Below the pieces are notes generated by a model. It saw only the letters and a program-made list of their open reading frames with translations, did no database searches and was not told where the DNA came from. Source: Butyriboletus loyo (taxonomy: Eukaryota > Basidiomycota > Agaricomycetes > Boletales > Boletaceae). From it: a stretch of DNA of 64,000 bases. The stretch covers positions 62,001 to 126,000 of the forward strand of contig JBBPSI010000007.1 in the NCBI GenBank assembly GCA_038093515.1. Reading direction: 5' to 3'. Of this stretch, positions 25,569 to 30,471 are shown piece after piece; position 1 is the stretch's first letter, and every line of letters starts with the position of its first letter. The translations under genes and the position numbers were made by a program.

Positions 25569-28500
25569 ATGAGAAAAAAGAGAAAGGACGAAGAGGAGGA
25601 GGTATACCACGTCGGTAAGACCTGCACCAGCGTATAGACTACTCCGTGGCAACAAAGGATTTCCAGAGGTCATCGCGAGAGCACGGGTCAGTGAAGACAG
25701 TGATTGGGTAAGTGGCTCGCTCTAGCCATATTCTCCAATTCCGATGCATCAAATTATCTAGGAATATCTCGTGAAGGTGATCAGCACCGTTCGATGACAG
25801 CTAAACTTCTCATTCAACCCCCATCACACAGTGGGCGGGTTATGATTCGGACGCAGATAGGTGTGTATTATATCATAACATCCACTATGCTTCGTGGCAT
25901 TTAGTGCTTGTAGCTGGGAACCTTCGGCTAACGTACGGCAATGCGAGCGACTACTGGCAAGCTTTTGGAAACATATTGGTATGGATAATGAGGACTATCC
26001 TATCGGACACGAGGTAGCGGCTGGAGAAGACTGGATAAGTTCGTCCTTCAATTTACTATTTCCCGCAAATTCTCAACCGTTCACAGATAAAGAGAAGCGA
26101 TATTTCGCAGAGACATTTTCCAAGTCCTCGAAACAAGATTCAGATAAGGCGACGAACAAGAAGGATAGACAGGTCGGGAAAACGTTGACATGAGATCCAT
26201 GGCTAAATGACATTCTAGGGGAGACGAAAGTCGAAGTCGAGCACACCGCCTATATCAGAAAGTTCCACGAGTGACTCCGAGAGTCCAAACAGAGTACCTT
26301 TACCGAAAACACTCACTAGGAAGAAGCCCAATAGCGAAGCATACATCGCTGACACAGAAGTACGTACCTCCCATCCGTTACTTTCATCCGTGCACTTGAT
26401 TGATTCCTCTCAACATTGTAGTCCGAGTCTGAGTCCGATGGCCATCTCCGCAAGCAGGTGAGGATTGCATCCCGCTCGAAAGCCACCACAGCCTCCTCAA
26501 AGGAAATCCCTAAGGTGGGTCCTACTTCTTGCTTTCCAAAATAGTACTTTTGCCAAACAGATTCTGGCCCAGGTCGCACGACAAGAATTACCGCCAGCGA
26601 CCGGTGGTCCGTCGTCTATCGCACCACCCAAGGTTGCCGTTGTACGCACTCATCAAGATCAAAGGATCAATCCTCTCGTCAAGGCCATGAATCTACCTTC
26701 TCAGAGTGTCGAGGCCGGAAGCTCGCTCTCCACCAAGCAGCGTGTGGCTGCTGGAATACCGCCACCTTTTATTGGCCTGAAGCCGCTTCCACCCGCACCT
26801 AAGAAGTCGCTTCCACCACTCTCGTTTAAGAAGAACAAATCGCTTGTTGGCCCCAGTAGCCAGATGAAAGACGCTATTGTGTCGAGCACGTCCATTGCAA
26901 CACCTACATCACCTGTAGTTCAACCCACAGATGTTGATGCAGTTGTGGTCATGTCCCCTCAGCCAATGGATGTTGATCAGCCCGTCGATCTCTTTGATTC
27001 TATCTTGGATGATGCTGAACTGCCAGATGGAAGGTACGTGGTCCAGGGGAAGTAGAGCCTATCTAAAATGTGATTGCATGACAGCTCCGAAATATTTGCT
27101 GCTCCAATACCACCAAAATCCCAGGAAGAGATCAATGCAGAGAAGTTCTTGCAAGCTCTTCATATTCCTGCGTAAGTAATATATTATTTTTTCTTCAATC
27201 TGATTAAATATTCATATTACATCCAGGCTCAGTGGCCCTTTGTGAGTAATGTTATGATTTCATGAGATCTGCTTCATTGGGACTGAATGTTTGGGTCAAT
27301 AAAGGGAGGCTATGATATCTAATCAGTCTGACCAGCCAACAACTGAGTTGAATAAGACACTGGCCATACCAAAGTATGTTGGGTTGGTGAATAGTATTCT
27401 ATTGCTGACCTTCCTTCCAGAATACCTAAGAAGTGGAGATGGTCTGGTGATCTATTCATCAGCACTTCTGAGAGCAAAACAGAACTTCTCTCTGCTGTTT
27501 CTATATCAGATCCCAGTGGCACAAGCAACAGTTCCCACATCAACCTCTTGTTATCATCACTAGACTCACTCTGGATCTCAAAGCTATATTCAATTATTGA
27601 TCTATCACCCCTTCTTCGAGCCTGTGGAAAACCCCAGTACTTTGGTGGGCTGGAGTCAAATGAGCCTAGTGAAGAGGTGATCATGCATGGTTTGGAACTT
27701 CACTTGAAAAGTGAAGGACTGGTTGGCTTTCTTGATTCTTTGCTTAACATTTTATTGACTCTGCTTTATAGGCTGCAGCAATTCCATTGCTCCTTGATGG
27801 CTCTGAAGTAGCAGCCCTTATTGTCTTTCCAGGGACACAACAGGGGTTAACCAAGGTTCTACAAGTACCAGACCATCTACTGTCTGGAATCTCCCTTCTT
27901 GTTGTGCTTTTGCCATTTTCAGTGTCAACCATGACATCTACCAATGTTACTGGATGGAGATCCATTGAGGCTGTGACACAGTCCTCATCCAACCTACAGG
28001 ATCTGCTGGTACCCCCTGAGCTTCCCCAAGAGGCTGTGCTGTATCAGGCAATGTCCTTGTTGTGCTTTCCAAAGGCACTGCTGGACTTTCTCAATAACTC
28101 CCTCACAAGAAGAACATATTGTATCTGGCCCTTGCCTGATCAATTGTCACCAGGGTTGGATACTGCTATGCTCCAATGCATTCTCAAATCAACCAATGCT
28201 GTGTTAGCCAACCTTGAAGAGGATGTACGGGTTGTCTTCATATCCAATAGGCATTTAGACATGTTGCATACTATGCCATCACTGGTCACAAAGCGGGTCA
28301 ACTCTCCTGAAGTCCAATTTTGGACATATGGCTATTCTCTAAGCATGACCTTTCAGAGATGGAGAGTTCAGGAAATCTATCCACTAGGTATGAGGGGTTC
28401 AGTTAATGTTGTTTTGCTGCTGCAACTTAATTTACTGTAGGGGGTATTATAACATTCACTGCTTCTGCACTTGCAGAAGATCTGGTGGGTTGCCATCATC

Positions 28501-29103
28501 TAATATCCCAGATCATAGAGCATCCACTTTGGGATTGCTACCTCATTCCTGAAGTTTTGGCTATGAGTTACCTGTTGTGTAATAGTGGGGACCTGAGTTC
28601 TGCTAAGTGAGTCTGAACCTCCATATTAAACACCTTTGTTTAGCAACCTTACAGTGAATCATGCTTGACTCCTATTTTGGGCTTTATTGATCTTGGGATG
28701 GTTTCTGTAATTAGAATGCCTGAAAAAGGTCATTCTAACCAAGCAGTTTGGCTCTCCCAGGTCTTCAATCATTCCAGGGCTTGTGGGAATGAGCTGTTGG
28801 AAACCTATCTTGGAGTTCTTAGGAGCCATCCTACCACCTCAGGCATGACAACTGAACAGCTCATCACTTTTACAAATGATGAGGTCATCAAAGATATTTC
28901 AAATGCTCAAATTCAACCAATATTCATGGAAAACTATAGGAGATTTGTAGTGATCAGAGCTGCCTCTGAGAACAGTATAGCATTTGGCAAAGATGGAGTA
29001 GGTCTTTCCTTGTTTGTCTCATGATCTTCTATTGATTGTACTTCAGCTTGAGTGGTCACCACTCTCCCTGTTTGACTTCAAAGATGACTATTTTCAGCCA
29101 TGA
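25569..29103 (+). CDS. Chromodomain protein with large C-terminal domain (Chp1-like architecture)
   Basis: After MRKKRKDEEEEVYHV, small exons assemble a chromodomain: VITRARVSEDSDW, EYLVK, WAGYDSDAD, SWEPSANVRQCERLLASFWK. The aromatic cage positions (Y in VYHV, W in VKWAGY, W in SWEP-type region) look intact, so binding of methylated H3K9 is plausible. A low-complexity linker follows (TPTSPVV, PQPMDVDQPVDLFDSILDDA). From about 27.07 kb the gene encodes a long folded C-terminal part with AALIVFPGTQQGLTKVLQVP, VRVVFISNRHLDMLHTMPSL, GGIITFTASALAEDLVGCHH and ENYRRFVVIRAASENSIAFG, ending DFKDDYFQP. The architecture recalls fission yeast Chp1 of the RITS heterochromatin complex; this is not proven. 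No in-frame stop or frameshift is needed, but the second half is almost devoid of CpG. Confidence 0.75.
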
Positions 29104-29400
29104 CCACCCTAGTTCCATACCTGATTGTTGCATACCTACATGGATTCATGAATTTGTCAGACATCTTTGGGTTGAGAGAGCTCTGTAGAGCATCCCATAG
29201 TGCTATGCCTAATTCAAGTAAAACTACTTGTAACACCCAGCTTACTATGCTGCAGAGATCTTCACTAGTCTCGAACCAGATGTTCTGAGAAGTACCAGGC
29301 TAGGTGTGTGAACACTTCCTAGGGCCCAAGCTTCTGAAAAGTCACCAAAAGCAGGTGGTCTGAGACTAGATCTTCACCTGACTTGAGCTGAACAGATGGC
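27181..29400. other. CpG-depleted block
   Basis: I count only four CG dinucleotides in these 2,220 bases (near 27616, 28228, 28293 and 29272). By contrast the 60 bases at 26581-26640 alone hold seven. GC content is moderately lower but not enough to explain the loss; TG and CA are abundant. The block covers the 3' exons and introns of the chromodomain gene plus about 300 bases beyond its stop, then CpG returns from about 29,400. This pattern is what long-term CpG methylation followed by deamination leaves behind. Confidence 0.85.
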
Positions 29401-29468
29401 ATCGACACATTCCTGAAATCAACTTCTCCACCTGCGACATGCCAGGTAGCAGGCATAGTATCAGAGCA
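29229..29468 (+). mobile_element. Possible degenerate LTR fragment
   Basis: Downstream of the chromodomain gene, TGTAACACCCAG at 29229 looks like the 5' end of a Ty3-type LTR. About 225 bases later TAGTATCAGAGC (29457-29468) resembles the primer-binding-site region, complementary to a tRNA 3' end, that follows many LTRs. No coding sequence of a retroelement, no second LTR and no clear target-site duplication are visible. It lies at the edge of the CpG-poor block. This is pattern matching only. Confidence 0.25.
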
Positions 29469-29737
29469 TACTTGTTGTAAACAATGATGGCAGTAGCTTC
29501 ATTGTTCCATCAAGTCGGAGATGCGCTATCGAGAAGATTTTGTCCGAACAAGCTGGATAACTGGAATAATGTTTACTGTCAAATGAACTAGGTTAACCCC
29601 AAAACCGAATAGTACACGGGCTAAAGCGGTCCAACGTTCTGGCACATGTGATTGATGTGTCCGGTGTTGAAAGTGTCGCCGGGTCACAGGTTTAAGGAAG
29701 GTTTTACCTAATTTTCGACTCGTCTCGTTTGCTCGCC
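29469..29737. other. Intergenic, PXMP4 promoter
   Basis: With normal CpG content, this stretch precedes the PXMP4 start. I see no gene or repeat; it should contain the PXMP4 promoter. Confidence 0.4.
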
Positions 29738-30471
29738 ATGTCAGGTCTCGACGCTTTGCTGCTTAATCCTGCTTTTCATGACTGCCTTGCGATCATCAAG
29801 GGTGCCAGGAATGGGTTCGTTTATGGCGTCAAAGTCAGATTCCCTCACGCCCTCATAATGGCGATACTCTTCGGACGTGGAGAGTATGTCCGTTCGTGCA
29901 GTCACGCCAACACTCTGCTAAACCCCATGAGTTAGCTGGAAGACGCGGGGTCGTGTTATCTACCAAGCAACGAAGCAGCATGCCCTCAACCTAGCAAAGT
30001 TCGTCTCGCTGTACAAGATTCTACTGTTACTCCAGAGGAAGGCGAACGGAGGGAAGGAACGCAGTGCAGATACGTTCATCGCTGGATTGATTGGGGGGTA
30101 TGTCGTGTTCGGGGACAGGACCGCGGTCAACGAGCAGGTACGCTCCGCGCTCACGCCATGTCGTCGTGCTTAGTGTTTTCGTGAAGATCGTACTCTACGT
30201 GGTTTCGAGGGTGATCGCAGCATTTTTACCCCGTGCAGGGATACCTTATTCAAAGACATCGTCGCCGAATGGGTCCGCCCTCGCTCGTCCCGTCCCACCA
30301 GATCCTCGGTGCTTTTCGGTATTCGCGGCGTTGGCATGGGGCGCTGTGATGTGGTTGTTCAAAAATCGCGGCGAGAGCATCCAGCCTGGCATGTTCAACT
30401 CTATGACCTACTTATACCGTGACTCGGAAGTCTGGAAAGACCTTAGGACGCTCCTTTGGCACAACACATGA
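29738..30471 (+). CDS. Peroxisomal membrane protein 4 (PXMP4/PMP24, Tim17-like family)
   Basis: Starts MSGLDALLLNPAFHDCLAII and has the family segment NGFVYGVKVRFPHALIMAIL. The first intron (GTATGT...TTAG) joins FGRGD to WKTRGRVIYQATKQHALNLA. Then come KFVSLYKILLLLQRKANGGK, FIAGLIGGYVVFGDRTAVNE, IVLYVVSRVIAAFLPRAGIP and FSVFAALAWGAVMWLFKNRG, ending PGMFNSMTYLYRDSEVWKDL before RTLLWHNT. Four hydrophobic segments and glycine-rich turns fit a small multi-spanning membrane protein of peroxisomes. Its role is poorly known in any species. Confidence 0.9.

Follow-up and report, generated by a model that had tools for sequence, protein, structure and literature searches.

The window studied here, 64,000 nucleotides of the basidiomycete Butyriboletus loyo (assembly GCA_038093515.1, contig JBBPSI010000007.1, positions 62,001 to 126,000 of the forward strand), carries a gene whose predicted product resembles Chp1 and whose 3' half is almost free of CpG. 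Judged from the sequence, this half of a functioning, single-copy Chp1-like gene is probably a long-lived and bounded CpG-methylated domain of about 2.5 kb, presumably heterochromatic. CpG were lost there by a C-to-T decay that was specific for CpG, affected both strands, took place in situ, has soft borders and left a protein under selection. The proposal that 5-methylcytosine, maintained by DNMT1/DNMT5, would be the agent of this decay has good support, and the trigger of the domain may be self-targeting or a past duplication. Chemically the process is a familiar one; its target, an intact gene, is unusual.

The interval 27181-29400 holds just four CpG in 2,220 bases (at 27617, 28228, 28294 and 29272), and its ratio of observed to expected CpG (o/e) is 0.04, compared with 0.90 for the full window. 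An earlier sequence-only reading of this DNA had given exactly this count, and the seven CG that it placed in 26581-26640 were also found on counting. In the depleted interval TpG and CpA are raised to o/e 1.40 and 1.37, GpC (n = 94, o/e 0.92) and TpA (0.68) are unchanged, and the GC content is 0.429 versus 0.505 for the whole window. Loss of CpG with a gain of TpG and CpA and no change of GpC and TpA is the pattern of a CpG-methylation scar. Ranked by length, the CpG-free runs of the 64 kb are led by three in the desert (978, 611 and 446 bp), and the fourth has 140 bp. A Poisson calculation, which ignores local structure, gives a probability of 2e-51 for four or fewer CpG in the desert core (Table 1). 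The loss was similar on both strands, with an excess of 42 TG and 33 CA. Together these make an excess of about 75, which falls short of the CpG deficit (90-129, depending on the base composition assumed), as would be expected if part of the decay products mutated onward.

The depletion starts in the middle of the gene and, as had been read from the letters, hits exons and introns alike. In the desert half the exons have 3 CpG versus 76.0 expected from base composition and the introns 0 versus 10.4, and from the stop codon to 29402 there is 1 versus 15.2. Upstream of the desert the gene has 64 CpG versus 69.2 expected in its exons and 16 versus 21.0 in its introns. Since introns and exons are depleted alike, codon use alone is no explanation. 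The Arg codons number 10 CGN and 9 AGR upstream and 3 CGN and 13 AGR in the desert half, and all three coding CpG remaining in the core belong to Arg CGN codons; an extra CpG at the left edge, at 27171, spans a splice donor. It seems that protein selection, and not codon preference, determines which coding CpG survive.

The edges were measured by the share CpG/(CpG+TpG+CpA), for which the remainder of the window gives 0.30. The share is 0 to 0.1 per 100 bp inside the core, so the depletion was upheld in this windowed check, and it amounts to 0.08-0.10 in 26901-27200 on the left, and to 0.09 in 29401-29500 and 0.24 in 29501-29600 on the right, being normal beyond. The desert had been described as sharp, but its edges are not perfectly so: a shoulder of partial depletion flanks it on either side, about 300 bp long on the left and about 100-150 bp on the right. 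These soft edges would each be about as wide as one or two nucleosomes. Of the two borders the right one is tighter, and it falls in a repeat; the core ends 299 bases beyond the stop codon (29101-29103), in agreement with the 300 or so estimated before.

For the repeat, the copy at the desert was compared with 26 other copies in the genome, duplicates removed, and each occurrence of CG at a site of another copy was taken as a cell, such cells not being independent of one another. In 29197-29402 the copy at the desert keeps CG in 12 of 162 cells and has TG/CA in 117, and in 29403-29642 it keeps CG in 92 of 181 cells and has TG/CA in 54. For GC, the control dinucleotide, retention is alike on the two sides (64/134 left, 95/200 right). 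Counted per site, where at least 40% of the copies have CG, the left part has eight sites that now read CG (one), TG/CA (six) and AG (one), and the right part eleven that read CG (eight), CA (two) and CT (one). The 24 other copies with cells in the left part retain a fraction of 0.15-0.74 of the CG there, as opposed to 0.07 in the copy at the desert. Close to the border the retention is 16/51 in 29402-29450, 0/21 in 29450-29500 and 44/55 in 29500-29550. The polarised result indicates that CpG decayed to TpG/CpA in situ, after the repeat had arrived, and that the border lies inside one insertion.

Table 1. Positions of the desert, its surviving CpG, the repeat at its right edge and the Chp1-like gene, numbered from the first letter of the window
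Feature	Position	Strand	Remarks
Desert core	27172..29402	.	4 CpG versus about 133 expected at flank density
Left shoulder	26901..27171	.	CpG share about 30% of normal (0.08-0.10 versus 0.30)
Right shoulder	29403..29560	.	Partial depletion within repeat copy; share 0.09, then 0.24
Surviving CpG	27617..27618	+	Arg codon 473 (CGA); Arg in 15/17 aligned sequences, own included
Surviving CpG	28228..28229	+	Arg codon 660 (CGG); Arg in 17/17 aligned sequences, own included
Surviving CpG	28294..28295	+	Arg codon 682 (CGG); orthologues variable at site
Old dispersed repeat copy	29197..29642	.	64-89% identical to copies/fragments elsewhere; desert edge 29402 inside
Chp1-like gene (predicted)	25569..29103	+	17 exons, 900 amino acids; GT-AG introns, manual splicing guided by orthologues
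Chp1-like exons 1-9	25569-25614, 25667-25707, 25762-25776, 25832-25860, 25914-26038, 26087-26172, 26219-26359, 26422-26514, 26561-27033	+	
Chp1-like exons 10-17	27085-27171, 27227-27241, 27305-27373, 27421-27721, 27772-28387, 28441-28606, 28655-28997, 29047-29103	+	
Chromodomain (amino acids 13-64)	25605..25974	+	Five exons; upstream of desert, CpG normal; PF00385 E 9.6e-12
SPOC domain (about amino acids 408-561)	27422..27931	+	Within desert, after linker
PIN-like C-terminal domain (about amino acids 710-896)	28378..29086	+	Within desert

The gene model is a prediction from the sequence, guided by orthologues, four of which have 892-910 amino acids. An earlier model of 881 amino acids, with one intron missed and two splice sites misplaced, was used for the Pfam scan, the orthologue search, the protein search for copies in the own genome and the tree; the CpG counts by exon and the orthologue comparisons use the 900-amino-acid model, with an alignment that omits P0016, and the alignment used for the structure comparison omits P0006. 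The reading frames are open, as had been noted, and encode a conserved protein whose orthologue matches with a named source come from Boletales genera and one Mycena, which bears out the basidiomycete origin assumed from the letters. Identity to the Boletaceae orthologues covering each half is 63-73% upstream of the edge and 69-79% downstream, the desert-half protein being no less conserved than the upstream half. No second copy of the desert was found by DNA or protein search of the assembly (420 contigs, 30.3 Mb), except for its last 206 bases or so, the only part that is a dispersed repeat. The suggestion of the sequence-only reading that the 3' half belongs to a multi-copy family silenced by methylation was therefore abandoned, and it could not be kept for the terminal repeat either, as 25 of the 26 other repeat places lack any 500-bp window below o/e 0.43. 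The one exception is a place on contig C327, where a Tc1/mariner element adjoins the repeat. The decayed segment does not qualify as a silenced transposon since, the terminal repeat apart, it encodes the SPOC and PIN domains of a conserved protein and no transposase or other mobile-element sequence.

The case for a heterochromatin protein turned out to be stronger than had been claimed from the chromodomain, in that the gene, by its sequence and predicted structure, is a putative Chp1-like heterochromatin platform and goes beyond a mere chromodomain gene. Its product has the architecture of Chp1, with an N-terminal chromodomain, a SPOC domain after a linker and a C-terminal DomII/PIN unit. The orthologue profile matches many chromodomains, those of CDYL, Chp1 (2rsn, E 2.1e-8), Swi6, MPP8 and others, and Y13, W35 and Y38 stand in the sequence at the places where the residues of an H3K9me aromatic cage would be expected. 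In structure, the C-terminal half is best matched by the Chp1-Tas3 core (3tix, E 3e-15) of the RNA-induced transcriptional silencing complex (RITS), and it is the SPOC-PIN half that the scar covers. The protein is like fission yeast Chp1, a core subunit of RITS, in combining a chromodomain with SPOC and DomII/PIN, and unlike it in having 15% sequence identity in the aligned part and an overall TM score of 0.33-0.38. Two other identities were rejected. HP1 was discarded because the chromoshadow domain is missing, the Pfam scan giving a chromodomain only and the C-terminal half being SPOC/PIN-like. TASOR, of the HUSH complex, was discarded since there was no Pfam match to the N-terminal pseudo-PARP domain (DUF3715), described as a feature of the TASOR family in the part of the source that deals with it (PMC7532188).

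Two tests at protein level showed no sign of a recent burst of mutation on the branch leading to this protein. A CpG transition could account for 1 of the 51 amino-acid changes on that branch in the desert half and for 3 of the 38 upstream, counted with six Boletaceae and with two near-duplicate Boletus sequences omitted. In a tree of nine sequences, built with the 881-amino-acid model, the terminal branch compared with that of the Butyriboletus sequence is 0.139 versus 0.136 for the desert half and 0.192 versus 0.174 for the upstream half. With few changes of the CpG type and no faster branch the decay is probably old, and the methylated domain is probably older than the split from that Butyriboletus. 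Arg loss was also tried as a sign of decay and none was seen, the desert half having 16 Arg in 522 aligned positions versus 10-18 in the Boletales orthologues over 351-522. One Arg to Trp change is present in the desert half, at codon 458 (TGG), where 6 of the 6 Boletaceae compared have Arg.

The search for comparable deserts covered 68 other loci of the genome, which overlap in part and total 223,043 bases, or about 166,000 distinct 40-mers; it used 780 windows of 500 bp. The sample is biased, because the loci had been picked by repeat, reverse-transcriptase and methyltransferase searches. Only one other place among them fell below o/e 0.2, a Tc1/mariner element on C327 represented by three overlapping loci. 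Together with four reads fetched by their match to PF13358 (DDE_3), all five Tc1/mariner reads have deserts; they cover 6 of the 132 PF13358 matches listed. Three of the reads (1.7-3 kb) have an o/e of 0.03-0.07 over their entire length; for TpG and CpA, the values in the four that were fetched are elevated, at 1.2-1.44. The fourth fetched read (C118:7801-9500) has a CpG-free Tc1/mariner run of 1,125 bp, with TpG 1.20 and CpA 1.25. The desert in the Chp1-like gene thus resembles the Tc1/mariner copies of the same genome (o/e 0.03-0.07 and TpG/CpA 1.3-1.4 in the three reads), and it differs from them in that they are multi-copy, many with frame stops, and the gene is conserved and single-copy. 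Methylation followed by deamination, the cause named at the outset from the letters, is well supported by the CpG-specific loss on both strands, the polarity within the repeat and this likeness to Tc1/mariner.

Some features of the Tc1/mariner regions were observed in passing. At position 1125 of C118:7801-9500 the sequence changes abruptly to a CpG o/e of about 1 and a GC content of 0.55-0.60. In the element at C327:3328-4645 the outer two parts are CpG-free and an intervening insert still has CpG, so that the insert seems younger than the decay. The region C25:37000-39999 has 5 CpG in three kilobases on a contig rich in Tc1/mariner matches, and is perhaps a large heterochromatic block or a centromere. 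None of the 132 DDE_3 matches listed is on C7, the contig that holds the window. Retrotransposons were dropped as the usual carriers of deserts, as 30 RVT_1 loci were mostly CpG-normal: the o/e of whole loci is 0.67-1.37, and only three have a 500-bp window below 0.5 (0.21, 0.41 and 0.46). The lowest of these windows, 1-500 of locus L022 on C123 (o/e 0.21, GC 0.35), lies beside a retroelement; the locus as a whole has an o/e of 0.73.

A gene for DNMT5 is present on C4, its best match being 7r76 (E 1e-75; labelled Rad8 there), which we take to be Cryptococcus DNMT5. A gene for a DNMT1-class enzyme is on C2 and one for a further PF00145 protein on C18, and the genome also has DNMT2, several Argonaute loci and one Pre-SET gene. 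The DNMT5, DNMT1-class, Argonaute and Pre-SET genes indicate that machinery for CpG methylation and heterochromatin is present. At the C18 DNMT1-like locus (L011) there is a CpG-poor coding stretch of about 0.8 kb, at about 320-1330 of the reverse complement, with a minimum o/e of 0.36 over 700 bp and with TpG and CpA raised. Among 1,792 overlapping control windows, Tc1/mariner and desert loci excluded, one is at or below 0.45. This hints at a mild version of the scar, and not at a desert.

The main rival to a standing methylated domain is a lost duplication with marking like that of repeat-induced point mutation (RIP) or methylation induced premeiotically (MIP). A past duplication of a 2.2-2.6-kb segment would have triggered methylation or a CpG-directed RIP-like mutation, and the partner would then have been lost, leaving the scar as a functionless fossil. 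MIP and RIP, described in the relevant passages of a 2026 review (PMC13297926), resemble the present case in that C:G is changed to T:A, or DNA is methylated, on both strands. The other strong deserts seen lie in Tc1/mariner elements, which are present in many copies; a duplicated segment would naturally have arbitrary borders, and here one is close to an exon-intron junction and the other inside a repeat; and a fragmented assembly of 420 contigs leaves room for a lost or collapsed copy. However, RIP and MIP need a duplicated target, and apart from the terminal repeat none was found here in either search; moreover, the context here is CpG. The RVT_1 loci, being mostly CpG-normal, indicate that repetition alone is insufficient in this genome, the shoulders of 100-300 bp are unlike a clean breakpoint, and the survivors in Arg codons suggest long exposure, not one burst. 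We therefore consider a lost duplication unlikely, if still the strongest of the competing explanations.

Far less probable is a leftward spread into the gene of silencing from the downstream repeat at 29197-29642. The desert does take in part of this repeat, and Pleurotus genes near transposable elements are more methylated according to the part of a review that treats them (PMC7862722). Yet the other repeat places, C327 with its adjoining Tc1/mariner element apart, have no comparable depletion, and the right part of the copy at the desert retains CpG like the other copies do, which places the centre of the domain elsewhere than in the repeat. An origin without methylation, by codon bias, a compositional segment, or conversion or transfer from a CpG-poor source, is most improbable: GC does fall (0.51 to 0.43), and the bases involved outnumber the missing CpG, but GpC is unchanged, introns and 3' flank are depleted equally, TpG and CpA are in excess, the CpG of the repeat were converted to TG/CA in place, and the orthologue identity of 69-79% in the desert half is ordinary for Boletaceae.

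If the 3' half is a methylated domain, the same kind of process as decays Tc1/mariner in this genome would act on it. Deamination of methylated C to T would go on in both strands until hardly any CpG remained, and purifying selection would keep the protein open, which could account for the leftover coding CpG of the core being in Arg codons. Tentatively, and in keeping with the second cause that the sequence-only reading offered, a self-regulated gene body in heterochromatin, the domain may be nucleated at the gene's own 3' end, with heterochromatin throttling the gene for a heterochromatin platform; one route to the borders would be an antisense transcript from the repeat near 29500, fading near 26900. 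It is a rather doubtful extension that in Boletaceae the SPOC-PIN half of the Chp1-like gene might be under lasting self-targeted silencing: heterochromatin that Chp1 helps to form would settle on the Chp1 gene and act there as a thermostat on an evolutionary time scale, with the desert as its mutational record.

Precedents for such feedback come from fission yeast. Without Mst2 and Epe1, heterochromatin builds on clr4+, or on rik1+ if this is blocked, and lowers expression; sequence 3' of clr4+ is needed for the clr4+ heterochromatin, and convergent genes are reported to form transient heterochromatin dependent on RNA interference (RNAi), according to the passages of the one paper that concern these genes (PMC4395908). 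The arrangement proposed here would be like the clr4+/rik1+ case as those passages present it, in that heterochromatin forms on a gene for heterochromatin assembly, 3' sequence is involved and the feedback is negative. It would be unlike that case in being a lasting state in a wild genome, compared with an acute response of mutants. Fission yeast is not known to have DNA methylation, and hence would bear no mutational scar.

Several points weigh against a methylated, self-restraining domain. The drop in GC of 142-180 bases, relative to the 5' part of the gene or to the flanks, exceeds the CpG deficit, so that CpG loss may be less than the whole change, and other changes or a lower starting GC may contribute. 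The figure of 1 in 51 could be explained by strong purifying selection as well, and the age claimed for the domain follows indirectly, from protein-level comparison. Nine reads were taken at DNMT, Argonaute and Pre-SET genes, two overlapping each other and each covering part of its gene, and eight are CpG-normal over the 3.1-3.5 kb read; heterochromatin genes are thus not generally scarred. The gene downstream is on the same strand as the Chp1-like gene, so convergent transcription with this neighbour is not evident. The clr4+ heterochromatin is independent of RNAi, persisting without dcr1, and uses no known assembly pathway, as its authors put it in the passage concerned (PMC4395908), and so lends no support to an RNA-guided route here. 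Finally, in the relevant parts of two reviews (PMC13297926, PMC7862722) fungal CpG methylation is seen as a transposon mark, basidiomycete methylation is placed on transposable elements, and gene-body methylation, as a source of mutations in coding sequence, is held to have mostly disappeared from fungi.

Here, one half of a gene that is intact, conserved and single-copy, and whose product is a putative heterochromatin platform, shows a scar as complete as that of transposons. A literature search found no work that combines CpG depletion with basidiomycete DNA methylation and transposable elements, and among the titles and abstract openings listed there was none on a basidiomycete Chp1; a review of fungal RNAi, where it deals with Chp1, mentions the protein in connection with fission yeast alone. 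Two questions become testable by ordinary sequencing, namely whether heterochromatin restrains its own factors in wild fungi and how a bordered methylated domain can persist on a working gene. A cheap screen also suggests itself, since CpG deserts within open reading frames would flag genes with a long silencing history. Were self-targeting the trigger, the gene would be a natural instance of heterochromatin feeding back on its own factors, as in the engineered fission yeast mutants, such instances could be found by scanning assemblies, and the milder CpG-poor stretch in the C18 DNMT1-like gene would be a second case.

Two observations concern the public orthologue models and the neighbouring gene. 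Four of the 17 orthologue models (P0003, P0008, P0009 and P0012) begin at or near the 3' half; predictors seemingly break these orthologues where the desert begins here, and perhaps the composition changes in those species too. The next gene downstream (MSGL...) begins at 29738 on the + strand. The Chiua virens model P0007 (PF02466) fuses this gene to the Chp1-like orthologue, which indicates that the gene order is conserved in Chiua virens, with the downstream gene on the same strand.

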